This document shows positions 29,701 to 63,907 of a stretch of 64,000 bases of DNA, piece after piece (position 1 is the stretch's first letter; every line of letters starts with the position of its first letter). Location: positions 19,769,919 to 19,833,918 of the forward strand of contig NC_087076.1 in the NCBI RefSeq assembly GCF_026151205.1. The letters are read 5' to 3'. A program made the position numbers and the translations under genes. This stretch comes from Bolinopsis microptera. Lineage: Eukaryota; Ctenophora; Tentaculata; Lobata; Bolinopsidae. The notes under the pieces are model-generated. The model had not been told where the DNA came from, did no database searches, and saw nothing but the letters and a program-made list of their open reading frames with translations.

Positions 29701-29854
29701 TCAGATATGAAAATTTCTGAACGCACATTTGACAGATTGGATGAAATTTTTGCCCACAAACCAATTAGTCAGTTAATTGATGATGGTATGAAACCAAATT
29801 GGGGTACTGGAAATCAAAATCTCGAAAAAAATTGGAAAATCATACTGTCCCATA

Positions 29855-33038: not shown

Positions 33039-33297
33039 TGAATACTGAATACTGAATACTGAATACTGAATACTGAATACTGAATACTGAATACTGAATA
33101 CTGAATACTGAATACTGAATACTGAATACTGAATACTGAATACTGAATACTGAATACTGAATACTGAATACTGAATACTGAATACTGAATACTGAATACT
33201 GAATACTGAATACTGAATACTGAATACTGAATACTGAATACTGAATACTGAATATTGAATACTGAATACTGAATACTGAATACTGAATACTGAATAC
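33039..33297. repeat. (TGAATAC)n microsatellite
   Basis: About 37 copies of a 7-bp unit, with one variant unit near 33252. It lies inside the MULE-like element. The minus strand is open as a YSVFSIQ heptapeptide repeat, with no sign of being coding. Confidence 0.95.
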
Positions 33298-36240: not shown

Positions 36241-36499
36241 TGAATACTGAATAATGAATACTGAATACTGAATACTGAATACTGAATACTGAATACTGAA
36301 TACTGAATACTGAATACTGAATACTGAATACTGAATACTGAATACTGAATACTGAATACTGAATACTGAATACTGAATACTGAATACTGAATACTGAATA
36401 CTGAATACTGAATACTGAATACTGAATACTGAATACTGAATACTGAATACTGAATACTGAATACTGAATACTGAATACTGAATACTGAATACTGAATAC
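36241..36499. repeat. (TGAATAC)n microsatellite, second copy
   Basis: Same length as the copy at 33039, but with its variant unit at a different place (near 36252). The two arrays have therefore diverged by point change without changing length. Confidence 0.95.
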
Positions 36500-38321: not shown

Positions 38322-39540
38322 TGTATAGTAATGTACAAGTATACACACGCAAAGGCTTACTACGCGGTAGCAGCAAACTGAACTTATCGCAAAGTTACAA
38401 AAGATAAGAGAGCTTGATAATTGCAACGTAAGCTACACACACTACACACACTGTGTGCACATTTGACAGATCGGATGAAATTTTTGCCCACAAACCAATT
38501 AGTTAGTTAATTGGTGATGGTATGAAACCAAATTGGGGTACTGGAAATCAAAATCTCGAAAAAAATTGGAAAATCATACTGTCCCATACTCTGTCCCATT
38601 TTCAGTTTTTGGAGCTGAAATTTCCAGGGCCGAAATTTTACAGTTTCGACCGAATTTCTGACCTGCAACCAATTAGTCAGTCAAATATAGATGCCAAATG
38701 ACACGATTGAGGTGCTGGAAGTTTGATTCGGGTCGGAGGAAGCTCACAGCAGAAATCTTAAGAAAACAAAAAGTTGTATTTTCAAAACTCTGTCCCATTT
38801 TCAGATATGAAAATTTCTGAACGCACATTTGACAGATTGGATGAAATTTTTGCCCACAAACCAATTAGTCAGTTAATTGATGATGGTATGAAACCAAATT
38901 GGGGTACTGAAAATCAAAATCTCGAAAAAAATTGGAAAATCATACTGTCCCATACTCTGTCCCATTTTCAGTTTTTGGAGCTGAAATTTCCAGGGCCGAA
39001 ATTGTACAGTTCCGGCCGAATTTCTGACCTGCAACCAATTAGTCAGTCAACTATAGATAACAAATGACACGATTGAGGTGTTGGAAGTTTGATTCAGGTC
39101 GGAGGAAGCTCACAGCAGAAATCTTAACAAAACGAAAAGTTGTATTTTCAAAACTCTGTCCCATTTTCAGATATGAAAATTTCTGAACGCACATTTGACA
39201 GATTGGATGAAATTTTTGCCCACAAACCAATTAGTCAGTTAATTGATGATGGTATAAAACCAAATTGGGGTACTGGAAATCAAAATCTCGAAAAAAATTG
39301 GAAAATCATACTGTCCCATACTCTGTCCCATTTTCAGTTTTTGGAGCTGAAATTTGCAGGGCAGAATTTTACAGTTTCGGCCGAATTTCTGACCTGCAAC
39401 CAATTAGTCAGTCAACTATAGATGCCAAATGACACGATTGAGGTGCTGGAAGTTTGATTAGGGCAGACGAAGCTAACAGCAGAAATCTTAACAAAACGAA
39501 AAATTGTATTTTCAAAACTCTGTCCCATTTTCAGATATGA

Positions 39541-40948: not shown

Positions 40949-43050
40949 GCACATTTGACAGATCGGATGAAATTTTTGCCCACAAACCAATTAGTTAGTT
41001 AATTGGTGATGGTATGAAACCAAATTGGGGTACTGGAAATCAAAATCTCGAAAAAAATTGGAAAATCATACTGTCCCATACTCTGTCCCATTTTCAGTTT
41101 TTGGAGCTGAAATTTCCAGGGCCGAAATTTTACAGTTTCGACCGAATTTCTGACCTGCAACCAATTAGTCAGTCAAATATAGATGCCAAATGACACGATT
41201 GAGGTGCTGGAAGTTTGATTCGGGTCGGAGGAAGCTCACAGCAGAAATCTTAACAAAACGAAAAGTTGTATTTTCAAAACTCTGTCCCATTTTCAGATAT
41301 GAAAATTTCTGAACGCACATTTGATAGATTGGATGAAATTTTTGCCCACAAACCAATTAGTCAGTTAATTGATGATGGTATGAAACCAAATTGGGGTACT
41401 GAAAATCAAAATCTCGAAAAAAATTGGAAAATCATACTGTCCATACTCTGTCCCATTTTCAGTTTTTGGAGCTGAAATTTCCAGGGCCGAAATTGTACAG
41501 TTCCGGCCGAATTTCTGACCTGCAACCAATTAGTCAGTCAACTATAGATAACAAATGACACGATTGAGGTGTTGGAAGTTTGATTCGGGTCGGAGGAAGC
41601 TCACAGCAGAAATCTTAACAAAACGAAAAGTTGTATTTTCAAAACTCTGTCCCATTTTCAGATATGAAAATTTCTGAACGCACATTTGACAGATTGGATG
41701 AAATTTGTGCCCACAAACCAATTAGTCAGTTAATTGATGATGGTATGAAACCAAATTGGGGTACTGGAAATCAAAATCTCGAAAAAAATTGGAAAATCAT
41801 ACTGTCCCATACTCTGTCCCATTTTCAGTTTTTGGAGCTGAAATTTCCAGGGCCGAAATTTTACAGTTTCGACCGAATTTCTGACCTGCAACCAATTAGT
41901 CAGTCAAATATAGATGCCAAATGACACGATTGAGGTGCTGGAAGTTTGATTCGGGTCGGAGGAAGCTCACAGCAGAAATCTTAAGAAAACGAAAAGTTGT
42001 ATTTTCAAAACTCTGTCCCATTTTCAGATATGAAAATTTCTGAACGCACATTTGACAGATTGGATGAAATTTGTGCCCACAAACCAATTAGTCAGTTAAT
42101 TGATGATGGTATGAAACCAAATTGGGGTACTGAAAATCAAAATCTCGAAAAAAATTGGAAAATCATACTGTCCCATACTCTGTCCCATTTTCAGTTTTTG
42201 GAGCTGAAATTTCCAGGGCCGAAATTTTACAGTTTCGACCGAATTTCTGACCTGCAACCAATTAGTCAGTCAAATATAGATGCATAATGACACGATTGAG
42301 GTGCTGGAAGTTTGATTCGGGTCGGAGGAAGCTCACAGCAGAAATCTTAAGAAAACGAAAAGTTGTATTTTCAAAACTCTGTCCCATTTTCAGATATGAA
42401 AATTTCTGAACGCACATTTGACAGATTGGATGAAATTTGTGCCCACAAACCAATTAGTCAGTTAATTGATGATGGTATGAAACCAAATTGGGGTACTGGA
42501 AATCAAAATCTCGAAAAAAATTGGAAAATCATACTGTTCCATACTCTGTCCCATTTTCAGTTTTTGGAGCTGAAATTTCCAGGGCCGAAATTTTACAGTT
42601 TCGGCCGAATTTCTGACCTGCAACCAATTAGTCAGTCAACTATAGATGCCAAATGACACGATTGAGGTGCTGGAAGTTTGATTCGGGTCGGAGGAAGCTC
42701 ACAGCAGAAATCTTAACAAAACGAAAAGTTGTTTTTTCAAAACTCGTTCCCATTTTCAGAAAAGAAAATTTCTGAACGCACATTTTACAGATTGGATGAA
42801 ATTTTTGCCCACAAACCAATTAGTCAGTTAATTGATGATGGTATAAAACCAAATTGGGGTACTGGAAATCAAAATCTCGAAAAAAATTGGAAAATCATAC
42901 TGTTCCATACTCTGTCCCATTTTCAGTTTTTGGAGCTGAAATTTCCAGGGCCGAAATTTTACAGTTTCGGCCGAATTTCTGACCTGCAACCAATTAGTCA
43001 GTCAACTATAGATGCCAAATGACACGATTGAGGTGCTGGAAGTTTGATTC

Positions 43051-44460
43051 GGCCTCGTTACGAGCACAATTACTATCCATGATACATGAATAATGAATAT
43101 ATTGGAGTATACCTTATCGGACATTATATTGGGGGAACATTGCATTACATGAGTATAGCTGGGGGGGGGGGGGGGGGGGGTTAATGCCCTTAACTCCATA
43201 ATTATGTCCACTCACGACATGTCCGTTCATTAAATTTGTCAACCCAAAGTGCGATAAGGTTATAACACAGTAAAACAGTCGACTGTATACACACACCAAA
43301 GCGTACCAAACTCGGTTCTAAAACTTGAAGGGGCCAGACATCCTTGGTCAGTAAGATAAGATTGAGATGAATTGATAAACATAAGAAGCTAAATACTCAC
43401 CGCAAGTATAATCAGTCTCTAGCAATTAGCATATTATTCTATTCAATTACATTCAAACTTATTTCTTTCTATTATATCTATCCCTCTTGTAGTATATCAG
43501 AATTAAGTCTCTGCATTCATGATTCAAAGTTAACCGGTGTACAGTCCTGGTATCTGTAAGGGATTACGAAAGAACCTAACAGAGTGATAAGATTCTTAAC
43601 CACTGGACTGTGCCCGGGTTAAATATGTTTAACACGGCTTTTGTCCGAATCAGGTGACCGAAAAACAATAACTGCTCTCCGAATTTGAAATCTGATCCGT
43701 ATACGACACATTTCGAATCAAAAATATGGTATGAATTGTTAAATTGTTGCTAATTTTCGAAAGACGTTGGCTTCCAATACGTAAGCAATATGCAATAGCT
43801 CCAGTCATGAGTCCGAACTGGTTAATTTCTGGAAAGGGTTCTTGTAGTTGGTAACAGTTTTGCCAGGAAGGAGTCCGTAACCCTTCCAAAACTCCGAACA
43901 CTTCCAAAGTTCCATATGGTAAGTATAGTTGAAAAAATTTAGTGTAACGATGAATTTAAGTGTAGAAAATTGTAATTGAATTATTTAAGACCTAGCTAAA
44001 TGTAACAAATACAATAATTGTTGGGACAATCTGAGTGTTTTACAATCTGGTGCAAATTACAGTATCATGGAACTTTATTCAATAATATATATACATAAAA
44101 TATATATGGGGTCTGATCAAATAATATTCAACAAATCAATTAAAAAGTTATTGCACTTTATCCAAAGAAAGGCTGTTCAGGTACGACTCTCAATCAATAA
44201 GCAACATTTCAAAGTTAAGTCTGACAGGGTCTACGGAATTTAGAGTCCCAATCCATGCAGATCTAGTGATCAGTGTGACGAGATCTCAAATCATGTGTGC
44301 GTACCGGGTCCCACGCTAATGCACTTGTGATCACCGCACACTTAATCACTGTACACGTGATCACTGATTTCACATTCCGATCACGTGTTTTACAGGACGG
44401 ATGTAATCCAAACCAGTCTGGTCTAACGAGCTGATGCAGCTATTAGGCTAACGAGAAAAC
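43051..44460. other. Spacer between the satellite array and the kinase gene
   Basis: No supported gene. It contains a 20-base guanine run (43161-43180). Close to the kinase it has several GATCAC-type motifs (44265-44390). A minus-strand frame at 43650-43907 has no recognisable features. Confidence 0.6.
44353..44388. promoter_or_regulatory. Inverted E-box pair upstream of the kinase
   Basis: ACACGTGATC (44353-44362) and its exact inverse GATCACGTGT (44379-44388) lie about 85-115 bp upstream of the TATA box. Each contains the palindromic E-box CACGTG, bound in animals by bHLH-ZIP factors such as USF, MITF and MYC/MAX. Related GTGATCA motifs occur at 44265 and 44330. Function is inferred from position and symmetry. 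Confidence 0.4.
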
Positions 44461-44468
44461 CGAGAGGG

Positions 44469-44476
44469 TATAAAAA
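44469..44476 (+). promoter_or_regulatory. TATA box of the kinase gene
   Basis: TATAAAAA, 73 bp before the ATG at 44549. This places a transcription start near 44,500 and leaves a 5' UTR of about 50 bases. It is a good match in a sensible place. Confidence 0.7.
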
Positions 44477-44548
44477 CAGTTTCAATTCGTCATAAGCCAT
44501 CATCGTATCTGTCTACCTTTGTTCACTACCACTTCCATTTCCAATAAT

Positions 44549-45394
44549 ATGTTCGCAGCAATCAAAAAGTATTTCTTCCCTACACCCCTCTTGACACACT
44601 TTGACGTTTTGCAGAAGTTAGGATCTGGAGGCTATGGGACAGTCTATCTGGCTCGGAGGAAGCAAGACAACACTACTGTAGCCGTAAAGAAGATCAAGAA
44701 GAAGAGAGTCCGTGAGTACGTGACCACCCCAGTGGGAGACCTACCTTTGGAGATCTACATCGCAATGAGCATGTCCCACACCAACATCATCAAAACGAGT
44801 GGGTTCCTGAAGAGCGGCGGATCCTGGTGCATGGTGATGGAACACTGTGTTGGGTACCTGGACCTCACTTCCTACATTCATTACAACAATACCCTCTCTC
44901 AGCTCACATCCAGGAAGATATTTATACAGACCTACAAGGCGCTCACCTACTGCTTCCGACAGAACGTCGTCCACAGAGATGTCAAAACAGACAACATCCT
45001 CGTGCACTGGTCCAACCACCAAGTCAAGCTTATAGACTTTGGAATTTCCAGTTTCGTGCGAGCAAACACAAAAGTGAACGAGGACAAGGGAACAGACATC
45101 TTCATGCCTCCAGAGTTCTTCATCAAACGCAGCTACGACCCTCTCGGTGGAACTGTCTGGGCACTAGGTTGTCTCCTCTACTGCATGATATTCGGAGAAG
45201 TTCCCTTCGTAGACGTGGAAGAAGTCCTCTACAAAGATCTGACATATTCCCTGCCCAGCCCTACTGATGATCCAGCCTCAAACTACTGTTTAGACCTGAT
45301 AGAGCGGTGTTTGGAGAAGAACGAGAACGATAGAGTTTCTTATAAGAATATCAGCTATCATCCCTGGATTGCAAGACATGATCAGTCAAAGTGA
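44549..45394 (+). CDS. PIM-like serine/threonine kinase, intronless
   Basis: 281 residues, essentially only a kinase domain. P-loop GSGGYGTV (25-32), VAVKK with Lys47, helix-C Glu68 in GDLPLEIY, HRDVKTDN (142-149), DFG (163-165), PPE (187-189) and Arg262 are all present, so it should be active. The PIM group is indicated by LPLE preceding helix C, by GTDIFMPPE, and by TVWALG, where most kinases have Asp before xWxxG; human PIM1 reads AVWSLG. PIM kinases phosphorylate basic Ser/Thr sites and are constitutively active, controlled mostly by transcription. The ATG was chosen over a TTG 30 bases upstream. A single exon with a TATA box suggests a retrocopy or a lineage-specific expansion. Confidence 0.9.
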   Translation: MFAAIKKYFFPTPLLTHFDVLQKLGSGGYGTVYLARRKQDNTTVAVKKIKKKRVREYVTTPVGDLPLEIYIAMSMSHTNIIKTSGFLKSGGSWCMVMEHCVGYLDLTSYIHYNNTLSQLTSRKIFIQTYKALTYCFRQNVVHRDVKTDNILVHWSNHQVKLIDFGISSFVRANTKVNEDKGTDIFMPPEFFIKRSYDPLGGTVWALGCLLYCMIFGEVPFVDVEEVLYKDLTYSLPSPTDDPASNYCLDLIERCLEKNENDRVSYKNISYHPWIARHDQSK

Positions 45395-45766: not shown

Positions 45767-45889
45767 TTAAGAGCAGGACTGCATCTTGATAGCATTGACC
45801 GCTACCAGGTGGGTGGTATCACCATGTTTCACCACCATCTGACCTGGCCTACTGTTACTCATCCTCATGTGCTTCCTGTCGATAGACAC
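45767..45889 (-). CDS. Giant protein, last exon
   Basis: 40 codons and stop, acceptor atctcag (minus). It reads VSIDRKHMRMSNSRPGQMVV and ends AIKMQSCS. Basic, not repetitive. Confidence 0.78.
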   Translation of the reverse strand: MSIDRKHMRMSNSRPGQMVVKHGDTTHLVAVNAIKMQSCS

Positions 45890-48800
45890 CTGAGATGGAA
45901 TACTGTTAAAGTGTTAACTAATGGTCACCAGAGATGGAATACATCTGATAATGTCTAGACAATTGCTGATATTGTCATGAAGAAGAATATTGCCTCCCTG
46001 ATACACAGGCGCATGTTGCTAGGGTATTCATTGGACATCACAAGCGGTAAATAATCAAGAAACTTATGAGAGTAGAAGTTTGAAATTCTAAATATAATCC
46101 AAATGTGCCAATTGACCTGGTTACCCCCGATGGAACAGACGGCCTGGTATCCTCTGGGTAAACACCCGTCAGCAGGTATTGCGACTAAGTTAGCTCCAGA
46201 GGGAACAGAGGATCCTGCTCCTTTGTAGCTAAAACTGACCTCTGACAGTGCGATTGCAGCTGGTACCTGGGAGGGGTTGTTATTGTGGGAGAAGGGATTA
46301 TATTATTATCAATCAGTGGCTTGAGAAAAAGAATGTTTGATTAAAACAATAGAAACTATCGCATTTCAGTTTATATCATGTTCATTGTTCAAAATGTGAG
46401 TTTGGTTGTATTTACTGTGAAATCATATCAAATAATGGAGTTTGGCCTGTAAAAGTATTTTGTTTAAAAAATACCTTGATACGCTGTCCATTGATCTTCA
46501 CTGAGAAGGTTCCAGGTCGAGCCGCTCTATTTCTAAAGTACCTTCCAGGAATTACAGCAGAGTTTCCTTTGATATTAACCTAACAAATTTAACAGTATTA
46601 ACATACTAAGGTTTATAGTTATAACATGACAAGTTTCTAGTTTTAACATACCACCGGACCCAAGTAGTCTAAGCGATCTTAGGGAAATACGACAAGTTGA
46701 TTGAGCAAATGAACCAAAAAATTAAATTAGCTAATCAAGTTAATTAAGTCTATTTATTTAATAAACCTGGTAGAATCTGTCAGGGTAGACGGGAGTTCCA
46801 CTGATATTACAAGAGGGTGCGTCAGTTGGTCGACGTGAAGGTCTGTTCATCATACTTGCAGGTATCACCACTATAGGCCTCTTGTCCTGAAATGCGTTCG
46901 GTAATATTGTGACTATACGTTTATACTATAGTGCTACCACAGTGCTACCACAGTGCTACCACAGTGCTACCACAGTGCTACCACAGTGCTACCACAGTGC
47001 TACCACAGTGCTACCACAGTGCTACCACAGTGCTACCACAGTGCTACCACAGTGCTACCACAGTGCTACCACAGTGCTACCACAGTGCTACCACAGTGCT
47101 ACCACAGTGCTACCACAGTGCTACCACAGTGCTACCACAGTGCTACCACAGTGCTACCACAGTGCTACCACAGTGCTACCACAGTGCTACCACAGTGCTA
47201 CCACAGTGCTACCACAGTGCTACCACAGTGCTACCACAGTGCTACCACAGTGCTACCACAGTGCTACCACAGTGCTACCACAGTGCTACCACAGTGCTAC
47301 CACAGTGCTACCACAGTGCTACCACAGTGCTACCACAGTGCTACCACAGTGCTACCACAGTGCTACCACAGTGCTACCACAGTGCTACCACAGTGCTACC
47401 ACAGTGCTACCACAGTGCTACCACAGTGCTACCACAGTGCTACCACAGTGCTACCACAGTGCTACCACAGTGCTACCACAGTGCTACCACAGTGCTACCA
47501 CAGTGCTACCACAGTGCTACCACAGTGCTACCACAGTGCTACCACAGTGCTACCACAGTGCTACCACAGTGCTACCACAGTGCTACCACAGTGCTACCAC
47601 AGTGCTACCACAGTGCTACCACAGTGCTACCACAGTGCTACCACAGTGCTACCACAGTGCTACCACAGTGCTACCACAGTGCTACCACAGTGCTACCACA
47701 GTGCTACCACAGTGCTACCACAGTGCTACCACAGTGCTACCACAGTGCTACCACAGTGCTACCACAGTGCTACCACAGTGCTACCACAGTGCTACCACAG
47801 TGCTACCACAGTGCTACCACAGTGCTACCACAGTGCTACCACAGTGCTACCACAGTGCTACCACAGTGCTACCACAGTGCTACCACAGTGCTACCACAGT
47901 GCTACCACAGTGCTACCACAGTGCTACCACAGTGCTACCACAGTGCTACCACAGTGCTACCACAGTGCTACCACAGTGCTACCACAGTGCTACCACAGTG
48001 CTACCACAGTGCTACCACAGTGCTACCACAGTGCTACCACAGTGCTACCACAGTGCTACCACAGTGCTACCACAGTGCTACCACAGTGCTACCACAGTGC
48101 TACCACAGTGCTACCACAGTGCTACCACAGTGCTACCACAGTGCTACCACAGTGCTACCACAGTGCTACCACAGTGCTACCACAGTGCTACCACAGTGCT
48201 ACCACAGTGCTACCACAGTGCTACCACAGTGCTACCACAGTGCTACCACAGTGCTACCACAGTGCTACCACAGTGCTACCACAGTGCTACCACAGTGCTA
48301 CCACAGTGCTACCACAGTGCTACCACAGTGCTACCACAGTGCTACCACAGTGCTACCACAGTGCTACCACAGTGCTACCACAGTGCTACCACAGTGCTAC
48401 CACAGTGCTACCACAGTGCTGCTACAGTGCTACCACAGTGCTACCACAGTGCTACCACAGTGCTACCACAGTGCTACCACAGTGCTACCACAGTGCTACC
48501 ACAGTGCTACCACAGTGCTACCACAGTGCTACCACAGTGCTACCACAGTGCTACCGCAGTGCTACCACAGTGCTACCACAGTGCTACCACAGTGCTACCA
48601 CAGTGCTACCACAGTGCTACCACAGTGCTACCACAGTGATACCATAGTGATCTCATACTGCTACCACAGTGCTATCATAGTGATATCATCACGTATCAAA
48701 TTTAAAATGGAAAGTCTACCGTTTATTAAAGTTAAATCATTGACACATTTTTTGTACGATCGTTAATGTATTTCGTATCATGATAGAAAAATGGCAAAAA

Positions 48801-51800
48801 TCTAATAATGATTTCATAGATGGTCACCTTAGCCACGGGTTTGTAGGTAGGTTTCACAGAGCCATCATTGTTGAACATAACAAACAGGGGGAAGGATCTG
48901 GTTCCACGAGGCAATCCTTGAGACATAAACTTAGGAGCACCCATAGCAGGGTATGTGGGATATGGTAGCTTGGTTGGAGAATCACCATCATCAGAGGATG
49001 AGTCTCCAGAAGATGAACTGGGATCAGAAGACATGTAGCCAGGACCTCCAGGAGAAAGGAAAGCTTGTGCACCAGTAGGCGATGGTATGAAACCACAAGG
49101 ACTTGGAATAAAACCTCCAGGACCCTCAGGGCCATATGGTCCGACAGAAGTCGGTCCGTATGGTCCAGCAAAAGTAGGTCCGTAAGGTCCAACAGAAGCA
49201 GGTCCGTATGGTCCAGCTGGATCAATAAGTCCTACAGATGAAGGTACTCCGTAGGGTCCAGCAGACGCAAGTCCAGCAGAAGTAGGTCCGTAGGGTCCAG
49301 CAGAAGCAGGTCCAGCAGAAGTAGGTCCGTAGGGTCCAGCAGACGCAGGTCCAGCAGAAGTAGGTCCGTAAGTTCCGGCAGAAACAGGTCCGTATGGTCC
49401 AGTAGAAGCAGGTCCAGTAGAAGTAAGTCCGTAAGGTCCGGCAGAAGTAGGACCGTAAGGTCCGGAAGAAGTAGGTCTGTATGGTCCAGCGCCTCCAGCA
49501 CCTCCGGAAGAAATATCAATGTCGATAGAGGGACCAACTCCTGCACCAGAACCAGCACCGTATTGACCGGCACCTCCAGCACCACCAGCACCAGGACCGT
49601 ACAGTCCACCGGCACCACCAGATGGTGAAATAAGTCCAGCTCCAGAAGGACCGGATGAAGGTCCAGCACCTCCAGCAGCAGAAACAACAAATACGACGTG
49701 CACTGATCCACCATATGCAACTAGGACACTTCCTAGATTGCTTGGGTTTGGTGAGATGGCAGCTCCAGAGACGATAACAGTTGCACCACTAGGTAGAGTT
49801 ACACTGTAAGAACCTCCGGCAGAAATGAGGATTCCGTTGAACATGAATCCACCAGCACCTCCGGCACCACCAGCAGCGCCAGCACCTCCTGCACCAGAGC
49901 CATACATACCTGCTCCAGCGCCTCCAGCACCTCCGGAGTAAATATCAATGTCGATAGAGGGACCAACTCCTGCACCAGAACCAGCACCGTATTGACCGGC
50001 ACCTCCAGCACCACCAGCACCAGGACCGTACAGTCCACCGGCACCACCAGATGGTGAAATAAGTCCAGCTCCAGAAGGACCGGATGAAGGTCCAGCACCT
50101 CCAGCAGCAGAAACAACAAATACGACGTGCACTGATCCACCATATGCAACTAGGACACTTCCTGGATTGCTTGGGTTTGGTGAGATGGCAGCTCCAGAGA
50201 CGATAACAGTGGCACCACTAGGTAGAGTTACACTGTAAGAACCTCCGGCGGAAATGAGGATTCCGTTGAACATGAATCCACCAGCACCTCCGGCACCACC
50301 AGCAGCGCCAGCACCTCCTGCACCAGAGCCATACATACCTGCTCCAGCGCCTCCAGCACCTCCGGAGTAAATATCAATGTCGATAGAGGGACCAACTCCT
50401 GCACCAGAACCAGCACCGTATTGACCGGCACCTCCAGCACCACCAGCACCAGGACCGTACAGTCCACCGGCACCACCAGATGGTGAAATAAGTCCAGCTC
50501 CAGAAGGACCGGATGAAGGTCCAGCACCTCCAGCAGCAGAAACAACAAATACGACGTGCACTGATCCACCATATGCAACTAGGACACTTCCTGGATTGCT
50601 TGGGTTTGGTGAGATGGCAGCTCCAGAGACGATAACAGTGGCACCACTAGGTAGAGTTACACTGTAAGAACCTCCGGCGGAAATGAGGATTCCGTTGAAC
50701 ATGAATCCACCAGCACCTCCGGTACCACCAGCAGCGCCAGCACCTCCTGCACCAGAGCCATACATACCTGCTCCAGCGCCTCCAGCACCTCCGGAGTAAA
50801 TATCAATGTCGATAGAGGGACCAACTCCTGCACCAGAACCAGCACCGTATTGACCGGCACCTCCAGCACCACCAGCACCAGGACCGTACAGTCCACCGGC
50901 ACCACCAGATGGTGAAATAAGTCCAGCTCCAGAAGGACCGGATGAAGGTCCAGCACCTCCAGCAGCAGAAACAACAAATACGACGTGCACTGATCCACCA
51001 TATGCAACTAGGACACTTCCTGGATTGCTTGGGTTTGGTGAGATGGCAGCTCCAGAGACGATAACAGTGGCACCACTAGGTAGAGTTACACTGTAAGAAC
51101 CTCCGGCGGAAATGAGGATTCCGTTGAACATGAATCCACCAGCACCTCCGGCACCACCAGCAGCGCCAGCACCTCCTGCACCAGAACCATACATACCTGC
51201 TCCAGCGCCTCCAGCACCTCCGGAGTAAATATCAATGTCGATAGAGGGACCAACTCCTGCACCAGAACCAGCACCGTATTGACCGGCACCTCCAGCACCA
51301 CCAGCACCAGGACCGTACAGTCCACCGGCACCACCAGATGGTGAAATAAGTCCAGCTCCAGAAGGACCGGATGAAGGTCCAGCACCTCCAGCAGCAGAAA
51401 CAACAAATACGACGTGCACTGATCCACCATATGCAACTAGGACACTTCCTGGATTGCTTGGGTTTGGTGAGATGGCAGCTCCAGAGACGATAACAGTGGC
51501 ACCACTAGGTAGAGTTACACTGTAAGAACCTCCGGCGGAAATGAGGATTCCGTTGAACATGAATCCACCAGCACCTCCGGCACCACCAGCAGCGCCAGCA
51601 CCTCCTGCACCAGAGCCATACATACCTGCTCCAGCGCCTCCAGCACCTCCGGAGTAAATATCAATGTCGATAGAGGGACCAACTCCTGCACCAGAACCAG
51701 CACCGTATTGACCGGCACCTCCAGCACCACCAGCACCAGGACCGTACAGTCCACCGGCACCACCAGATGGTGAAATAAGTCCAGCTCCAGAAGGACCGGA

Positions 51801-54800
51801 TGAAGGTCCAGCACCTCCAGCACCTCCAGCAGCAGAAACAACAAATACGACGTGCACTGATCCACCATATGCAACTAGGACACTTCCTGGATTGCTTGGG
51901 TTTGGTGAGATGGCAGCTCCAGAGACGATAACAGTGGCACCACTAGGTAGAGTTACACTGTAAGAACCTCCGGCGGAAATGAGGATTCCGTTGAACATGA
52001 ATCCACCAGCACCTCCGGCACCACCAGCAGCGCCAGCACCTCCTGCACCAGAGCCATACATACCTGCTCCAGCGCCTCCAGCACCTCCGGAGTAAATATC
52101 AATGTCGATAGAGGGACCAACTCCTGCACCAGAACCAGCACCGTATTGACCGGCACCTCCAGCACCACCAGCACCAGGACCGTACAGTCCACCGGCACCA
52201 CCAGATGGTGAAATAAGTCCAGCTCCAGAAGGACCGGATGAAGGTCCAGCACCTCCAGCAGCAGAAACAACAAATACGACGTGCACTGATCCACCATATG
52301 CAACTAGGACACTTCCTGGATTGCTTGGGTTTGGTGAGATGGCAGCTCCAGAGACGATAACAGTGGCACCACTAGGTAGAGTTACACTGTAAGAACCTCC
52401 GGCGGAAATGAGGATTCCGTTGAACATGAATCCACCAGCACCTCCGGCACCACCAGCAGCGCCAGCACCTCCTGCACCAGAGCCATACATACCTGCTCCA
52501 GCGCCTCCAGCACCTCCGGAGTAAATATCAATGTCGATAGAGGGACCAACTCCTGCACCAGAACCAGCACCGTATTGACCGGCACCTCCAGCACCACCAG
52601 CACCAGGACCGTACAGTCCACCGGCACCACCAGATGGTGAAATAAGTCCAGCTCCAGAAGGACCGGATGAAGGTCCAGCACCTCCAGCACCTCCAGCAGC
52701 AGAAACAACAAATACGACGTGCACTGATCCACCATATGCAACTAGGACACTTCCTGGATTGCTTGGGTTTGGTGAGATGGCAGCTCCAGAGACGATAACA
52801 GTGGCACCACTAGGTAGAGTTACACTGTAAGAACCTCCGGCGGAAATGAGGATTCCGTTGAACATGAATCCACCAGCACCTCCGGCACCACCAGCAGCGC
52901 CAGCACCTCCTGCACCAGAGCCATACATACCTGCTCCAGCGCCTCCAGCACCTCCGGAGTAAATATCAATGTCGATAGAGGGACCAACTCCTGCACCAGA
53001 ACCAGCACCGTATTGACCGGCACCTCCAGCACCACCAGCACCAGGACCGTACAGTCCACCGGCACCACCAGATGGTGAAATAAGTCCAGCTCCAGAAGGA
53101 CCGGATGAAGGTCCAGCACCTCCAGCAGCAGAAACAACAAATACGACGTGCACTGATCCACCATATGCAACTAGGACACTTCCTGGATTGCTTGGGTTTG
53201 GTGAGATGGCAGCTCCAGAGACGATAACAGTGGCACCACTAGGTAGAGTTACACTGTAAGAACCTCCGGCGGAAATGAGGATTCCGTTGAACATGAATCC
53301 ACCAGCACCTCCGGCACCACCAGCAGCGCCAGCACCTCCTGCACCAGAGCCATACATACCTGCTCCAGCGCCTCCAGCACCTCCGGAGTAAATATCAATG
53401 TCGATAGAGGGACCAACTCCTGCACCAGAACCAGCACCGTATTGACCGGCACCTCCAGCACCACCAGCACCAGGACCGTACAGTCCACCGGCACCACCAG
53501 ATGGTGAAATAAGTCCAGCTCCAGAAGGACCGGATGAAGGTCCAGCACCTCCAGCAGCAGAAACAACAAATACGACGTGCACTGATCCACCATATGCAAC
53601 TAGGACACTTCCTGGATTGCTTGGGTTTGGTGAGATGGCAGCTCCAGAGACGATAACAGTGGCACCACTAGGTAGAGTTACACTGTAAGAACCTCCGGCG
53701 GAAATGAGGATTCCGTTGAACATGAATCCACCAGCACCTCCGGCACCACCAGCAGCGCCAGCACCTCCTGCACCAGAGCCATACATACCTGCTCCAGCGC
53801 CTCCAGCACCTCCGGAGTAAATATCAATGTCGATAGAGGGACCAACTCCTGCACCAGAACCAGCACCGTATTGACCGGCACCTCCAGCACCACCAGCACC
53901 AGGACCGTACAGTCCACCGGCACCACCAGATGGTGAAATAAGTCCAGCTCCAGAAGGACCGGATGAAGGTCCAGCACCTCCAGCAGCAGAAACAACAAAT
54001 ACGACGTGCACTGATCCACCATATGCAACTAGGACACTTCCTGGATTGCTTGGGTTTGGTGAGATGGCAGCTCCAGAGACGATAACAGTGGCACCACTAG
54101 GTAGAGTTACACTGTAAGAACCTCCGGCGGAAATGAGGATTCCGTTGAACATGAATCCACCAGCACCTCCGGCACCACCAGCAGCGCCAGCACCTCCTGC
54201 ACCAGAGCCATACATACCTGCTCCAGCGCCTCCAGCACCTCCGGAGTAAATATCAATGTCGATAGAGGGACCAACTCCTGCACCAGAACCAGCACCGTAT
54301 TGACCGGCACCTCCAGCACCACCAGCACCAGGACCGTACAGTCCACCGGCACCACCAGATGGTGAAATAAGTCCAGCTCCAGAAGGACCGGATGAAGGTC
54401 CAGCACCTCCAGCAGCAGAAACAACAAATACGACGTGCACTGATCCACCATATGCAACTAGGACACTTCCTGGATTGCTTGGGTTTGGTGAGATGGCAGC
54501 TCCAGAGACGATAACAGTGGCACCACTAGGTAGAGTTACACTGTAAGAACCTCCGGCGGAAATGAGGATTCCGTTGAACATGAATCCACCAGCACCTCCG
54601 GCACCACCAGCAGCGCCAGCACCTCCTGCACCAGAGCCATACATACCTGCTCCAGCGCCTCCAGCACCTCCGGAGTAAATATCAATGTCGATAGAGGGAC
54701 CAACTCCTGCACCAGAACCAGCACCGTATTGACCGGCACCTCCAGCACCACCAGCACCAGGACCGTACAGTCCACCGGCACCACCAGATGGTGAAATAAG

Positions 54801-57800
54801 TCCAGCTCCAGAAGGACCGGATGAAGGTCCAGCACCTCCAGCAGCAGAAACAACAAATACGACGTGCACTGATCCACCATATGCAACTAGGACACTTCCT
54901 GGATTGCTTGGGTTTGGTGAGATGGCAGCTCCAGAGACGATAACAGTGGCACCACTAGGTAGAGTTACACTGTAAGAACCTCCGGCGGAAATGAGGATTC
55001 CGTTGAACATGAATCCACCAGCACCTCCGGCACCACCAGCAGCGCCAGCACCTCCTGCACCAGAGCCATACATACCTGCTCCAGCGCCTCCAGCACCTCC
55101 GGAGTAAATATCAATGTCGATAGAGGGACCAACTCCTGCACCAGAACCAGCACCGTATTGACCGGCACCTCCAGCACCACCAGCACCAGGACCGTACAGT
55201 CCACCGGCACCACCAGATGGTGAAATAAGTCCAGCTCCAGAAGGACCGGATGAAGGTCCAGCACCTCCAGCAGCAGAAACAACAAATACGACGTGCACTG
55301 ATCCACCATATGCAACTAGGACACTTCCTGGATTGCTTGGGTTTGGTGAGATGGCAGCTCCAGAGACGATAACAGTGGCACCACTAGGTAGAGTTACACT
55401 GTAAGAACCTCCGGCGGAAATGAGGATTCCGTTGAACATGAATCCACCAGCACCTCCGGCACCACCAGCAGCGCCAGCACCTCCTGCACCAGAGCCATAC
55501 ATACCTGCTCCAGCGCCTCCAGCACCTCCGGAGTAAATATCAATGTCGATAGAGGGACCAACTCCTGCACCAGAACCAGCACCGTATTGACCGGCACCTC
55601 CAGCACCACCAGCACCAGGACCGTACAGTCCACCGGCACCACCAGATGGTGAAATAAGTCCAGCTCCAGAAGGACCGGATGAAGGTCCAGCACCTCCAGC
55701 AGCAGAAACAACAAATACGACGTGCACTGATCCACCATATGCAACTAGGACACTTCCTGGATTGCTTGGGTTTGGTGAGATGGCAGCTCCAGAGACGATA
55801 ACAGTGGCACCACTAGGTAGAGTTACACTGTAAGAACCTCCGGCGGAAATGAGGATTCCGTTGAACATGAATCCACCAGCACCTCCGGCACCACCAGCAG
55901 CGCCAGCACCTCCTGCACCAGAGCCATACATACCTGCTCCAGCGCCTCCAGCACCTCCGGAGTAAATATCAATGTCGATAGAGGGACCAACTCCTGCACC
56001 AGAACCAGCACCGTATTGACCGGCACCTCCAGCACCACCAGCACCAGGACCGTACAGTCCACCGGCACCACCAGATGGTGAAATAAGTCCAGCTCCAGAA
56101 GGACCGGATGAAGGTCCAGCACCTCCAGCAGCAGAAACAACAAATACGACGTGCACTGATCCACCATATGCAACTAGGACACTTCCTGGATTGCTTGGGT
56201 TTGGTGAGATGGCAGCTCCAGAGACGATAACAGTGGCACCACTAGGTAGAGTTACACTGTAAGAACCTCCGGCGGAAATGAGGATTCCGTTGAACATGAA
56301 TCCACCAGCACCTCCGGCACCACCAGCAGCGCCAGCACCTCCTGCACCAGAGCCATACATACCTGCTCCAGCGCCTCCAGCACCTCCGGAGTAAATATCA
56401 ATGTCGATAGAGGGACCAACTCCTGCACCAGAACCAGCACCGTATTGACCGGCACCTCCAGCACCACCAGCACCAGGACCGTACAGTCCACCGGCACCAC
56501 CAGATGGTGAAATAAGTCCAGCTCCAGAAGGACCGGATGAAGGTCCAGCACCTCCAGCAGCAGAAACAACAAATACGACGTGCACTGATCCACCATATGC
56601 AACTAGGACACTTCCTGGATTGCTTGGGTTTGGTGAGATGGCAGCTCCAGAGACGATAACAGTGGCACCACTAGGTAGAGTTACACTGTAAGAACCTCCG
56701 GCAGAAATGAGGATTCCGTTGAACATGAATCCACCAGCACCTCCGGCACCACCAGCAGCGCCAGCACCTCCTGCACCAGAGCCATACATACCTGCTCCAG
56801 CGCCTCCAGCACCTCCGGAGTAAATATCAATGTCGATAGAGGGACCAACTCCTGCACCAGAACCAGCACCGTATTGACCGGCACCTCCAGCACCACCAGC
56901 ACCAGGACCGTACAGTCCACCGGCACCACCAGATGGTGAAATAAGTCCAGCTCCAGAAGGACCGGATGAAGGTCCAGCACCTCCAGCAGCAGAAACAACA
57001 AATACGACGTGCACTGATCCACCATATGCAACTAGGACACTTCCTGGATTGCTTGGGTTTGGTGAGATGGCAGCTCCAGAGACGATAACAGTGGCACCAC
57101 TAGGTAGAGTTACACTGTAAGAACCTCCGGCGGAAATGAGGATTCCGTTGAACATGAATCCACCAGCACCTCCGGCACCACCAGCAGCGCCAGCACCTCC
57201 TGCACCAGAGCCATACATACCTGCTCCAGCGCCTCCAGCACCTCCGGAGTAAATATCAATGTCGATAGAGGGACCAACTCCTGCACCAGAACCAGCACCG
57301 TATTGACCGGCACCTCCAGCACCACCAGCACCAGGACCGTACAGTCCACCGGCACCACCAGATGGTGAAATAAGTCCAGCTCCAGAAGGACCGGATGAAG
57401 GTCCAGCACCTCCAGCAGCAGAAACAACAAATACGACGTGCACTGATCCACCATATGCAACTAGGACACTTCCTGGATTGCTTGGGTTTGGTGAGATGGC
57501 AGCTCCAGAGACGATAACAGTGGCACCACTAGGTAGAGTTACACTGTAAGAACCTCCGGCGGAAATGAGGATTCCGTTGAACATGAATCCACCAGCACCT
57601 CCGGCACCACCAGCAGCGCCAGCACCTCCTGCACCAGAGCCATACATACCTGCTCCAGCACCTCCAGCACCTCCGGAGTAAATATCAATGTCGATAGAGG
57701 GACCAACTCCTGCACCAGAACCAGCACCGTATTGACCGGCACCTCCAGCACCACCAACACCAGGACCGTACAGTCCACCGGCACCACCAGATGGTGAAAT

Positions 57801-60800
57801 AAGTCCAGCTCCAGAAGGACCGGATGAAGGTCCAGCACCTCCAGCAGCAGAAACAACAAATACGACGTGCACTGATCCACCATATGCAACTAGGACACTT
57901 CCTGGATTGCTTGGGTTTGGTGAGATGGCAGCTCCAGAGACGATAACAGTGGCACCACTAGGTAGAGTTACACTGTAAGAACCTCCGGCGGAAATGAGGA
58001 TTCCGTTGAACATGAATCCACCAGCACCTCCGGCACCACCAGCAGCGCCAGCACCTCCTGCACCAGAGCCATACATACCTGCTCCAGCGCCTCCAGCACC
58101 TCCGGAGTAAATATCAATGTCGATAGAGGGACCAACTCCTGCACCAGAACCAGCACCGTATTGACCGGCACCTCCAGCACCACCAGCACCAGGACCGTAC
58201 AGTCCACCGGCACCACCAGATGGTGAAATAAGTCCAGCTCCAGAAGGACCGGATGAAGGTCCAGCACCTCCAGCAGCAGAAACAACAAATACGACGTGCA
58301 CTGATCCACCATATGCAACTAGGACACTTCCTGGATTGCTTGGGTTTGGTGAGATGGCAGCTCCAGAGACGATAACAGTGGCACCACTAGGTAGAGTTAC
58401 ACTGTAAGAACCTCTGGCAGAAATGAGGATTCCGTTGAACATGAATCCACCAGCACCTCCGGCACCACCAGCAGCGCCAGCACCTCCTGCACCAGAGCCA
58501 TACATACCTGCTCCAGCGCCTCCAGCACCTCCGGAGTAAATATCAATGTCGATAGAGGGACCAACTCCTGCACCAGAACCAGCACCGTATTGACCGGCAC
58601 CTCCAGCACCACCAGCACCAGGACCGTACAGTCCACCGGCACCACCAGATGGTGAAATAAGTCCAGCTCCAGAAGGACCGGATGAAGGTCCAGCACCTCC
58701 AGCAGCAGAAACAACAAATACGACGTGCACTGATCCACCATATGCAACTAGGACACTTCCTGGATTGCTTGGGTTTGGTGAGATGGCAGCTCCAGAGACG
58801 ATAACAGTGGCACCACTAGGTAGAGTTACACTGTAAGAACCTCCGGCGGAAATGAGGATTCCGTTGAACATGAATCCACCAGCACCTCCGGCACCACCAG
58901 CAGCGCCAGCACCTCCTGCACCAGAGCCATACATACCTGCTCCAGCGCCTCCAGCACCTCCGGAGTAAATATCAATGTCGATAGAGGGACCAACTCCTGC
59001 ACCAGAACCAGCACCGTATTGACCGGCACCTCCAGCACCACCAGCACCAGGACCGTACAGTCCACCGGCACCACCAGATGGTGAAATAAGTCCAGCTCCA
59101 GAAGGACCGGATGAAGGTCCAGCACCTCCAGCAGCAGAAACAACAAATACGACGTGCACTGATCCACCATATGCAACTAGGACACTTCCTGGATTGCTTG
59201 GGTTTGGTGAGATGGCAGCTCCAGAGACGATAACAGTGGCACCACTAGGTAGAGTTACACTGTAAGAACCTCCGGCGGAAATGAGGATTCCGTTGAACAT
59301 GAATCCACCAGCACCTCCGGCACCACCAGCAGCGCCAGCACCTCCTGCACCAGAGCCATACATACCTGCTCCAGCGCCTCCAGCACCTCCGGAGTAAATA
59401 TCAATGTCGATAGAGGGACCAACTCCTGCACCAGAACCAGCACCGTATTGACCGGCACCTCCAGCACCACCAGCACCAGGACCGTACAGTCCACCGGCAC
59501 CACCAGATGGTGAAATAAGTCCAGCTCCAGAAGGACCGGATGAAGGTCCAGCACCTCCAGCAGCAGAAACAACAAATACGACGTGCACTGATCCACCATA
59601 TGCAACTAGGACACTTCCTGGATTGCTTGGGTTTGGTGAGATGGCAGCTCCAGAGACGATAACAGTGGCACCACTAGGTAGAGTTACACTGTAAGAACCT
59701 CCGGCGGAAATGAGGATTCCGTTGAACATGAATCCACCAGCACCTCCGGCACCACCAGCAGCGCCAGCACCTCCTGCACCAGAGCCATACATACCTGCTC
59801 CAGCGCCTCCAGCACCTCCGGAGTAAATATCAATGTCGATAGAGGGACCAACTCCTGCACCAGAACCAGCACCGTATTGACCGGCACCTCCAGCACCACC
59901 AGCACCAGGACCGTACAGTCCACCGGCACCACCAGATGGTGAAATAAGTCCAGCTCCAGAAGGACCGGATGAAGGTCCAGCACCTCCAGCAGCAGAAACA
60001 ACAAATACGACGTGCACTGATCCACCATATGCAACTAGGACACTTCCTGGATTGCTTGGGTTTGGTGAGATGGCAGCTCCAGAGACGATAACAGTGGCAC
60101 CACTAGGTAGAGTTACACTGTAAGAACCTCCGGCGGAAATGAGGATTCCGTTGAACATGAATCCACCAGCACCTCCGGCACCACCAGCAGCGCCAGCACC
60201 TCCTGCACCAGAGCCATACATACCTGCTCCAGCGCCTCCAGCACCTCCGGAGTAAATATCAATGTCGATAGAGGGACCAACTCCTGCACCAGAACCAGCA
60301 CCGTATTGACCGGCACCTCCAGCACCACCAGCACCAGGACCGTACAGTCCACCGGCACCACCAGATGGTGAAATAAGTCCAGCTCCAGAAGGACCGGATG
60401 AAGGTCCAGCACCTCCAGCAGCAGAAACAACAAATACGACGTGCACTGATCCACCATATGCAACTAGGACACTTCCTGGATTGCTTGGGTTTGGTGAGAT
60501 GGCAGCTCCAGAGACGATAACAGTGGCACCACTAGGTAGAGTTACACTGTAAGAACCTCCGGCGGAAATGAGGATTCCGTTGAACATGAATCCACCAGCA
60601 CCACAAGCAGCGCCAGCACCTCCTGCACCAGAGTCATACATACCTGCTCCAGCGCCTCCAGCACCTCCGGAGTAAATATCAATGTCGATAGAGGGACCAA
60701 CTCCTGCACCAGAACCAGCACCGTATTGACCGGCACCTCCAGCACCACCAGCACCAGGACCGTACAGTCCACCGGCACCACCAGATGGTGAAATAAGTCC

Positions 60801-63800
60801 AGCTCCAGAAGGACCGGATGAAGGTCCAGCACCTCCAGCAGCAGAAACAACAAATACGACGTGCACTGATCCACCAAATGCAACTAGGACACTTCCTGGA
60901 TTGCTTGGGTTTGGTGAGATGGCAGCTCCAGAGACGATAACAGTGGCACCACTAGGTAGAGTTACACTGTAAGAACCTCCGGCGGAAATGAGGATTCCGT
61001 TGAACATGAATCCACCAGCACCTCCAGCACCACAAGCAGCGCCAGCACCTCCTGCACCAGAGTCATACATACCTGCTCCAGCGCCTCCAGCACCTCCGGA
61101 GTAAATATCAATGTCGATAGAGGGACCAACTCCTGCACCAGAACCAGCACCGTATTGTCCAGCACCACCAGCACCAGGACCGTACAGTCCACCGGCACCA
61201 CCAGATGGTGAAATAAGTCCAGCTCCAGAAGGACCGGATGAAGGTCCAGCACCTCCAGCAGCAGAAACAACAAATACGACGTGCACTGATCCACCATATG
61301 CAACTAGGACACTTCCTGGATTGCTTGGGTTTGGTGAGATGGCAGCTCCAGAGACGATAACAGTGGCACCACTAGGTAGAGTTACACTGTAAGAACCTCC
61401 GGCGGAAATGAGGATTCCGTTGAACATGAATCCACCAGCACCTCCGGCACCACCAGCAGCGCCAGCACCTCCTGCACCAGAGCCATACATACCTGCTCCA
61501 GCACCTCCAGCACCTCCGGAGTAAATATCAATGTCGATAGAGGGACCAACTCCTGCACCAGAACCAGCACCGTATTGACCGGCACCTCCAGCACCACCAG
61601 CACCAGGACCGTACAGTCCACCGGCACCACCAGATGGTGAAATAAGTCCAGCTCCAGAAGGACCGGATGAAGGTCCAGCACCTCCAGCAGCAGAAACAAC
61701 AAATACGACGTGCACTGATCCACCATATGCAACTAGGACACTTCCTGGATTGCTTGGGTTTGGTGAGATGGCAGCTCCAGAGACGATAACAGTGGCACCA
61801 CTAGGTAGAGTTACACTGTAAGAACCTCCGGCGGAAATGAGGATTCCGTTGAACATGAATCCACCAGCACCTCCGGCACCACCAGCAGCGCCAGCACCTC
61901 CTGCACCAGAGCCATACATACCTGCTCCAGCGCCTCCAGCACCTCCGGAGTAAATATCAATGTCGATAGAGGGACCAACTCCTGCACCAGAACCAGCACC
62001 GTATTGACCGGCACCTCCAGCACCACCAGCACCAGGACCGTACAGTCCACCGGCACCACCAGATGGTGAAATAAGTCCAGCTCCAGAAGGACCGGATGAA
62101 GGTCCAGCACCTCCAGCAGCAGAAACAACAAATACGACGTGCACTGATCCACCATATGCAACTAGGACACTTCCTGGATTGCTTGGGTTTGGTGAGATGG
62201 CAGCTCCAGAGACGATAACAGTGGCACCACTAGGTAGAGTTACACTGTAAGAACCTCCGGCCTGAATGCGGATTCCGTTGAAATTGAAGCCAGCACCACC
62301 TGCAGTAGGAGCTGCACCTCCAGCAGCACCAGCACCTCCTGCACCAGAGCCATACATACCTGCTCCAGCGCCTCCAGCACCTCCGGAGTAAATATCAATG
62401 TCGATAGAGGGACCAACTCCTGCACCAGAACCAGCACCGTATTGACCGGCACCTCCAGCACCACCAGCACCAGGACCGTATAGTCCACCGGCACCTCCAG
62501 ATGGTGAAATAAGTCCAGCTCCAGAAGGACCGGATGAAGGTCCAGCACCTCCAGCAGCAGAAACAACAAATACGACGTGCACTGATCCACCATATGCAAC
62601 TAGGACACTTCCTGGATTGCTTGGGTTTGGTGAGATGGCAGCTCCAGAGACGATAACAGTGGCACCACTAGGAAGAGTTACACTGTAAGAACCTCCGGCG
62701 GAAATGAGGATTCCGTTGAACATGAATCCACCACCTGGTACACCATGATGTCCTCCTAGATTAGATGGACTACCTGGTACACCATGACGTACTTCTGGAC
62801 CAGATGGACTACCTGGTACACCATGACGTCCTCCTGGACCAGATGGACTACCTGGTACACCATGACGTTCTCCTGGACCAGATGAACTACCCGGGAATCC
62901 TGGTCTACCTCCTGGACCAGATGGACTACCTGGTACACCATGACGTCTGACTGGACCAGATGGACTACCTGGTACACCATGACGTCCTCCTGGACCGGAT
63001 GGACTACCCGGGAATCCTGGTTGTCTCCCTGGACTGGCTGGCCCTCGTGGCACTCCTGCTTGAGATCCAGGGAAAGTACCCGGAGACCCTGGGGATCCAG
63101 GGAAACCACCCGGAGACCCTGGGGATCCAGGAATTCCTCCTGGAGACCCTGGAGATCCAGGAATTCCACCTGGAGATCTGGGAGATCCTGGGCCAAGTTT
63201 TGGTTGTACAAGTTGTAAACTGGACACTGGATACGAAGATCCTCTGAATGTAACTATTACAGTTGATGGGTTGCTTGGGTTTTGAGCAATAGCAGATCCC
63301 GGTACAACAGGAGAACTTCCAGTCGGCAGTTTGACAAGATATCTGAGGTCAGGCTGGATGATAATTCCATTAAAGTTGAAAGCAGGACTCGGGAACAAGA
63401 TTCTAGATCCAGAAAGAGAAGCTCGTGATTGTCTACGGGCCAGGGGCTTGTTCTTTCCATTTGGGAAGAGGATCAGTGCCACCTGCAAATAGATGTTTAA
63501 ATGTTTTCTGGCATGTTTAAACAAACTTCTTATAATAGGAACAAGCTTCAAGATCCCGTAAGTGTTATAATTGAATTAACACTATTTCAGAATATGAGTA
63601 TGACGTAGAAATTTCGATACGTTATTCAGCTATTTATTTCCATCAGAATTTGTCTTCACTGAGTCTATTCAGAAACAATCAGAAATTTGAATGGCAGAAA
63701 TAACATTGAATGCAAAGGTTTTGTGTTACATTAACGTGTTAAATAATGTGTTATATTATTATTAACGATAACAAGGAGAAATGCTCACATTAATGACTGA

Positions 63801-63907
63801 TTTATACTCTCGTTTAAGGACACCATTGCTCGAGAAGACGGAAGTAGCTGGGATAGCAGTGTAGTTGCTCAAATCAATTCCTGCTTGAATCGCGGGGGCC
63901 CCGAGAC
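45767..63907 (-). CDS. Giant Gly/Ala-rich repetitive structural protein (5'-partial, 6 exons)
   Basis: Gene-level entry. Exons in transcript order: 63907-63789, 63482-48828, 46886-46767, 46579-46475, 46266-46117, 45889-45767 (stop). All have AG/GT borders; every intron after the first exon is phase 0. About 5,090 codons are in the window. Order of the protein: a short unique part; one divergent NFNGIIIQ module; a collagen-like Gly/Pro/Ser region; 31 near-identical 143-residue modules; a GPYGPTSA-type region; an acidic Ser/Asp stretch; and a unique, partly basic C-terminus. The modules combine a beta-rich segment with Gly-Ala linkers. No enzyme motif is visible. The composition suggests a secreted silk-like, matrix or capsule protein, but I do not recognise the family and the N-terminus, with any signal peptide, is outside the window. 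Confidence 0.82.
46117..46266 (-). CDS. Giant protein, exon with two cysteines
   Basis: 50 codons, acceptor tcccag, donor gtcaat. It encodes SVPSGANLVAIPADGCLPRG and CSIGGNQ. The donor at CAG/gtcaat keeps phase 0; an alternative gtaacc 9 bases earlier would break the frame with the next exon. Confidence 0.75.
46475..46579 (-). CDS. Giant protein, small exon
   Basis: 35 codons, acceptor tgttag, donor gtattt. It reads VNIKGNSAVIPGRYFRNRAA and SVKINGQRIK, a short beta-like segment. Phase 0 at both ends. Confidence 0.78.
46767..46886 (-). CDS. Giant protein, exon after the minisatellite intron
   Basis: 40 codons, acceptor atttcag, donor gtttat. It reads DKRPIVVIPASMMNRPSRRP and then CNISGTPVYPDRFYQ. 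Phase 0. It joins the giant exon across an intron filled with an 11-bp repeat. Confidence 0.78.
46931..48640. repeat. 11-bp minisatellite, about 155 copies
   Basis: Unit ACAGTGCTACC, almost without variation; a few changed units lie near 48421 and 48555, and the array decays after 48,637. It fills most of the 1.94-kb intron 46887-48827. Because 11 is not a multiple of 3 and the unit has no stop in any forward frame, all three plus-strand frames are open for more than 560 codons. These are artefacts. Confidence 0.97.
48828..63482 (-). CDS. Giant exon (14,655 bp) of the repetitive structural protein
   Basis: 4,885 codons without interruption. Acceptor atttgcag at 63483 on the minus strand, donor AAG/gtgacc at 48827; the open frame continues 23 codons upstream and 32 downstream but these are intronic. 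It starts VALILFPNGKNKPLARRQ. It holds the divergent module (about 63,250-63,400), the collagen-like region (62,740-63,195), the module array (about 49,490-62,720), the GPYGP region (about 49,090-49,490) and SSSSGDSSSDDGDS (about 48,980). Module copies are almost identical even at third codon positions. Exons this long are rare in intron-rich animal genes and usually mark silk, mucin or titin-type proteins. Confidence 0.88.
49090..49490 (-). repeat. GPYGPTSA-type short repeat region
   Basis: Within the giant exon, repeats of about 8 residues (GPYGPTSA, GPYGPVSA, GPYGPTFA), some extended to 13 by GPASA. Proline-glycine turns of this kind resemble elastomeric silk motifs. Copies differ more than the 143-residue modules do. 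Confidence 0.85.
49490..62720 (-). repeat. 429-bp coding repeat (143-residue module), about 31 copies
   Basis: Each unit encodes FMFNGILISAGGSYSVTLPS, the core ATVIVSGAAISPNPSNPGSV, LVAYGGSVHVVFVVSA, and then a Gly/Ala/Ser/Tyr linker with SIDIDIYSGG. Module starts recur every 429 bp (49799, 50228 and so on up to 62240). Two 438-bp and two 420-bp units differ by whole GGA triplets. Differences concentrate in units near both ends of the array. Confidence 0.95.
62740..63195 (-). repeat. Collagen-like Gly/Pro/Ser minisatellite region
   Basis: Two coding minisatellites: a 30-bp unit encoding GSPGSPGGIP-type decapeptides (63,070-63,195) and a 39-bp unit encoding RHGVPGSPSGPGG-type 13-mers (62,740-63,030). 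Gly-X-Y triplets occur, but an extra Gly or two breaks the register in each unit, so it is not a standard collagen helix. Confidence 0.85.
63789..63907 (-). CDS. Giant protein, upstream exon
   Basis: 119 bp, acceptor tttcag, donor gtgagc. In the only open frame (entry phase 1) it reads LGAPAIQAGIDLSNYTAIPA and then VFSSNGVLKREYKSVIN, joining the giant exon in phase 0. Earlier exons are outside the window. Confidence 0.72.

Follow-up and report, generated by a model that had tools for sequence, protein, structure and literature searches.

The 64,000-nt stretch of contig C5 analysed here (the window) comes from a ctenophore genome and carries, on its minus strand, a giant gene predicted to encode a repetitive protein of 5,098 amino acids (aa). 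One open frame runs for 4,947 codons without a stop (coordinates 48732-63575), and in a model made from the sequence alone seven exons with GT-AG introns were joined into a single reading frame with one stop, at its end, and none within. An earlier reading of the same DNA (the sequence-only reading) had proposed a silk-like or matrix protein of more than 5,000 codons with a 14.7-kb exon, located between 45767 and 63907. These limits are matched exactly by exons 2 to 7 of the model, in which exon 3 is 14,655 nt long, and the giant repetitive gene itself is confirmed at the sequence level.

Exons and segments of the giant gene

Exon 2 (coordinates 63789-63907; 119 nt), flanked by the acceptor ttttcag and the donor gtgagc, is entered in phase 1, and something must therefore precede it. 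A 25-nt segment encoding MVCGSGSP (phase 1; 64105-64081, minus strand, in segment L001 just beyond the window end) was taken as the predicted exon 1 because a paralogue at 9.88 Mb on contig C3 begins MVCQSNS. Exon 3 (48828-63482) holds the segments from the first, divergent module to the start of a C-terminal block. Exon 4 (46767-46886) encodes DKRPIVVIPASMMNRP... and the beginning of a C-terminal barrel module that is completed in exon 5 (46475-46579; VNIKGNSAVIPGRYF...). Exon 6 (46117-46266) is followed by exon 7 (45767-45889), which carries a final barrel-like module and the stop codon, with a weak hidden Markov model match of 5.4 bits across the exon 6/7 join.

From the N-terminus, a short leading sequence is followed by the divergent barrel module (FNFNGIIIQPDLRYLV...; 63189-63380), for which structure prediction gave the same fold as for the repeat core, and by a 154-aa Gly/Pro/Ser-rich segment with repeats of 10 and 13 residues (62736-63197), the start of which overlaps the end of the divergent-module structure query. 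Next come 31 head-to-tail units (49485-62726), a Gly/Pro/Tyr segment of the GPYGPTSA type (49113-49484), an acidic Ser/Asp stretch (SSDPSSSSGDSSSDDGDSPTK; 48969-49031) and the C-terminal block, which has further modules and the first part of which (48828-48971) reads KLPYP...LPRGTRxFPLxVxFNxDGSxKP. The GPYGP segment and the acidic Ser stretch had been claimed earlier and were found in the model, in which cysteine is rare (8 of 5,098 residues) and glycine accounts for 31% of residues. The collagen-like segment claimed with them proved to be merely Gly/Pro-rich, and a collagen triple helix was rejected, as no Gly-X-Y run in the 154-aa segment is longer than 12 residues.

Each of the 31 units, ~143 aa in length, pairs a ~57-aa barrel core (50091-50276, for example) with a Gly/Ala-rich linker behind it. 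Tandem Repeats Finder identified 30.9 copies of 429 bp with 98% matches (49485-62733), and the pattern F[MN]FNGI marks 32 cores, one in the divergent unit and 31 in Gly/Ala units, which bears out the 31 repeated modules proposed previously. Among the 31 core-to-core intervals compared (one being the divergent unit, with the last unit left out), an identical 143-aa unit is present in 21, and in 18 the 429 bp are identical letter for letter, suggesting that the units were recently copied or homogenised. A profile that itself contains modules of this protein scored at least 10 bits at 34 places in the 5,098 aa.

Paralogues and relatives of the module

The genome assembly (264.65 Mb in 232 contigs) was searched using the repeat and the C-terminus as queries, and the ~55-aa module appears to be present at about eight loci: C5, 9.88 and 20.85 Mb on C3, 8.66 Mb on C2, 1.94 and 2.01 Mb on C8, and 15.50 and 13.42 Mb on C9. 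The C3 loci include a 2,041-aa frame with 13 cores at 9.88 Mb and a 2,606-aa frame at 20.85 Mb (C-terminal match, E 2e-32), and C2 carries a frame of 1,241 aa (E 9e-6). The loci on C8 and C9 were reached by weaker matches, weak when taken singly (E 0.002 to 4), and the one at 13.42 Mb on C9 is known via a neighbour family only (59% identity over 56 residues). Two module profiles were built without C8 or C9 sequences. At a threshold of 10 bits, the seed model found 9 domains at the C8 and C9 loci and the iterated model 12, whereas 700 unrelated open reading frames (ORFs) and the C8/C9 ORFs in reversed form yielded none. Profile-profile comparison of the silk-type, C2-type and C8/C9-type modules gave 96.4%, 96.1% and 98.5%; by these comparisons the silk-type cores are related to the modules of C2, C8 and C9. 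The tandem-module members on C2, C8 and C9 contain 4-17% glycine.

The giant proteins of C5 and of the two C3 loci share a C-terminal block, KLxYP...LPR..R.FPL.V.FN.D.S.KP...P...D.RP.VV.P..MMN.P, with 45-48% pairwise identity and a module behind it. In each of the three, an acidic Ser/Asp stretch stands directly before the block, its counterparts being equally placed in both giant paralogues. The middles of the proteins from C5 and from 9.88 Mb on C3 are arrays of barrels and Gly/Ala linkers, whereas that of the 20.85 Mb protein is made up of GPGGPGG with repeated Cys-Pro-Tyr-Ser units. The 2,606-aa frame of the latter (L016, 839-8656, minus strand) contains 58 Cys and has a tail of repeated NLNPGMFKPAINPMAQPRPAA. 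At 15.50 Mb on C9 (L020; C9:15502501-15510500), tandem modules give way to repeats rich in Gly, His and Gln, with a KKSKHHRSHSSSSSSSSN tail. On C2, a 239-aa frame (L017, 2152-2868, minus strand) with no Pfam or module match overlaps the end of the module protein and may belong to its gene.

Comparison of the commonest core of the giant gene with that of the 9.88 Mb paralogue gave a nonsynonymous divergence (dN) of 0.196 and a synonymous divergence (dS) of 1.694 (dN/dS ~0.12). These values indicate that purifying selection has acted over a long time between the two sets of cores, and the low dN relative to dS supports the coding nature of the sequence. Among the 13 cores inside the 9.88 Mb paralogue, the nonsynonymous difference (pN, 0.028) is close to the synonymous one (pS, 0.035), and short-term constraint within that array is, by this measure, small.

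The view that the family is an unrecognised one was upheld, as the module reaches the cut-off of no Pfam model. No Tudor model was matched at E<=1 by any of 27 modules, for which 11 families were listed, each matching a single module (best E 0.062). The 211-aa C-terminus, the C2 pieces and the 20.85 Mb protein had no Pfam match at E<=1, and a 435-aa piece of the giant protein had one, at E 0.18, with a score of 12.5 bits where the cut-off is 24.9. A sequence-profile search of solved structures revealed no relative (best E 0.68, an unrelated sialidase), and no description of the family was found in a literature search that covered few of the subscription journals. A bacterial origin of the module was rejected, as 594 pattern matches in a search of genome contigs included no relatives. 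Cytoplasmic intermediate filament models passed the Pfam cut-off at two places, both on C2, with three more below it, and were set aside as too uninformative.

Predicted fold and proposed location and role of the protein

The repeat core was modelled with AlphaFold2, using an input of eight window sequences only, at a predicted local distance difference test score (pLDDT) of 91 and a predicted template modelling score (pTM) of 0.75, with three models near 90. The prediction for the divergent module reached a pLDDT of 83-92 over its body, with the strands in the same order. The top rows of a Foldseek search of the PDB were Hfq proteins (best E 0.14 for the core and 0.28 for the divergent module), and the Tudor domains of PHF1 and PHF19 were matched by the core at TM-scores of 0.55-0.62. 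For both modules, the best 24 rows of a second structure comparison were chains of Tudor-domain proteins, although some titles name the protein only, and the best rows, among them PHF1, TDRD3 and PHF19, superimpose 50-56 residues with a root-mean-square deviation (rmsd) of 2.2-3.3. Viral structures yielded no match at E<=0.001. On structural modelling, the module is probably an SH3-like small barrel of the Tudor type, differing from known Tudor/SH3-like barrels in having no sequence match to them and in being strung in tandem on Gly/Ala linkers. The NGILISAGGSYSV...NPSNPGSV core is thus predicted, at moderate scores, to be a small beta-barrel and not a silk crystal motif.

The host lineage was examined through glutamate receptors of this genome. 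The ligand-binding domain of one of them (L013) matched Mnemiopsis ML032222a at 5e-68 and 4zdm (Pleurobrachia) at 1e-57, compared with 2e-32 for the next animal. The closest receptor found (L015) has in common with the Mnemiopsis domain 88 of 116 residues in one aligned stretch and 90 of 128 in another. A search of the assembly for COX1 gave no match. Two further receptors, which matched mammalian or insect receptors first, were not discriminating. The genome, taken earlier to be cnidarian-like, is by the L013 matches that of a ctenophore, and a component of the nematocyst capsule is therefore ruled out and hydrozoan periderm irrelevant.

The N-termini of five members (C5, two on C3, C2 and C8; exon 1 being predicted for C5) were compared by hydropathy. 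The peak 9-residue value in the first 30 residues ranges from -0.06 to 0.97. Three control proteins of this genome, either secreted or membrane proteins, reach 3.2 to 3.5, and none of the five assigned N-termini has a hydrophobic leader by this measure. The clearest case is the gene at 20.85 Mb on C3, in which a stop lies 6 nt ahead of the ATG with no AG between. No signal-peptide exon passed a first filter in ~9 kb upstream of the C5 gene and ~7 kb upstream of the C3 gene. A looser filter gave 22 candidate upstream exons for the giant gene (14 of them listed) and three for C3, and the hydrophobic ones among the 14 listed end in phase 0 or 2, where exon 2 requires phase 1. In a hydropathy scan for transmembrane segments, the peak 19-residue value of the giant protein, 2.01, falls within a barrel core. 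As no signal-peptide-like N-terminus was seen in the five members, a cytoplasmic or ciliary structural polymer is favoured over a secreted one, and the extracellular silk or mesoglea component suggested by the sequence-only reading, the interpretation of which is partly supported overall, is disfavoured.

With a probability of about one half, then, the locus is a ctenophore gene of seven exons whose 5,098-aa product is an intracellular or ciliary structural protein in which predicted barrels are set on Gly/Ala linkers and chains are joined through the C-terminus. Such a protein would be made without a signal peptide and retained in the cytoplasm or cilium; its barrels would act as folded, sticky beads and its glycine-rich linkers as extensible spacers, while the C-terminal block behind the acidic Ser/Asp stretch might join or anchor the chains. 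It is best filed as a repetitive structural protein built on an unnamed module.

Several observations weigh against this interpretation. Two of the five AlphaFold2 models of the repeat core have a mean pLDDT near 70, and Foldseek found nothing in the PDB at E<=0.001 for either the core or the divergent module. In the second structure comparison, the best rows (Z 5.0, rmsd 2.6 over 54 residues for the core; Z 4.5, rmsd 3.3 over 56 for the divergent module) lie below Z 8, where a match may reflect a mere common arrangement. Exon 1 was chosen post hoc from the 22 loose candidates. An AG lies directly ahead of the ATG in the 9.88 Mb gene and AGs lie upstream in the C5, C2 and C8 genes, so that exons further upstream may have been missed in four of the five genes. 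Finally, Gly/Ala-rich polymers are defined as secreted in PMC4944945.

The last two points bear on the alternative that the product is exported as a silk, mucus, adhesive or mesoglea protein, with its signal-peptide exon missed or another route of exit. Its glycine content is the composition of known silk-like proteins, and among candidate genes for ctenophore colloblasts signal peptides are over-represented, although low-complexity sequence is not (PMC6278862). Given five leaderless N-termini and no candidate signal exon of the needed phase passing the first filter within 9 kb, secretion is possible but rather unlikely. A less likely alternative is that the barrel itself is the functional part, in a cytoplasmic scaffold or binding family resembling tandem Tudor/SH3-like readers, and that the array is a secondary, fast-evolving expansion of little material role. 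The low glycine content of the C2, C8 and C9 members, the closeness of pN to pS inside the C3 array and the recent copying indicated by unit identity would fit such a family; however, long glycine-rich middles stand independently at three loci before one shared C-terminal block, and the core has been kept between C5 and C3 although synonymous sites are saturated. An assembly or annotation error, giving the array a wrong number of copies or a false continuity, is very unlikely, and so is a dead gene. Assemblers may miscount 18 letter-identical intervals, but 4,947 stop-free codons, canonical introns, conserved paralogues and a dN/dS of ~0.12 speak against such an error.

Among known structural proteins, the spidroins form a gene family whose repetitive middles vary while the C-terminal block after them is conserved. 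The ctenophore family is alike in this, but belongs to a different phylum, shows no leader, and has a C-terminal block that contains a barrel module and differs from the spidroin C-terminal domain, the 211-aa C-terminus having no Pfam match at E<=1. Cnidarian nematocyst minicollagens have Cys-rich ends and a Gly-X-Y core. The giant protein resembles collagens and minicollagens in its Gly/Pro-rich stretch but differs in its short Gly-X-Y runs, its 8 Cys, the lack of a Gly-X-Y core and its ctenophore origin.

Silk-like structural proteins (SLSPs) are defined in PMC4944945 as having a signal peptide, a domain rich in glycine and no transmembrane segment; the main text of that paper does not contain 'ctenophor'. 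The giant protein is like SLSPs in being more than one quarter glycine, in its long tandem repeats and in its size; 80-residue windows with at least 25% glycine, as used for SLSPs, must exist in it because glycine makes up 31% of the whole. It differs in that no N-terminal signal peptide was found by hydropathy in the five members and in the folded barrel predicted for the repeat core. Silk-like proteins are as a rule defined as secreted, and a leaderless barrel-repeat family would escape surveys that demand a signal peptide first, such as the pipeline described there.

CTENO64 and CTENO189 are ctenophore-specific proteins of the compartmenting lamella of comb plates, according to PMC11184263, and comb plates are a candidate site for this reason. 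The lamella would suit a leaderless structural protein. That the giant protein acts in this or another ctenophore-specific intracellular or ciliary structure is a doubtful guess, with colloblast core filaments or the epidermal cortex as others. Equally tentative is the wider idea of a ctenophore intracellular silk, in which leaderless giants with a Tudor/SH3-like binding barrel turned bead, glycine-rich springs and a C-terminal assembly block would bear load in cells or cilia. If true, a small binding-type barrel would have been recast as a structural bead, and the proteins could, for example, serve in the lamella bonding thousands of comb-plate cilia, a role like that of keratins or silks elsewhere. 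Ctenophores have been proposed as the sister group of the remaining animals, and the proteins would also offer a molecular handle on structures specific to this phylum, such as comb plates or colloblasts.

Neighbouring features

Most of intron 3 is occupied by an 11-bp minisatellite (AGTGCTACCAC; 159 copies, 98% matches; coordinates 46930-48682), and the long plus-strand frames found there (up to 617 aa) are by-products of it. No Rfam match was found within the window. A protein kinase frame (Pkinase, E 6e-59; 44474-45394, plus strand) adjoins the end of the giant gene. A 366-bp satellite forms four arrays in two sequence versions inside 16 kb (26984-29855, 30719-32402, 38457-39540 and 40949-43052). 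Two TGAATAC arrays (33039-33297 and 36241-36499), of equal length with 37 copies each and 3.2 kb apart, look as if one segment had been duplicated.

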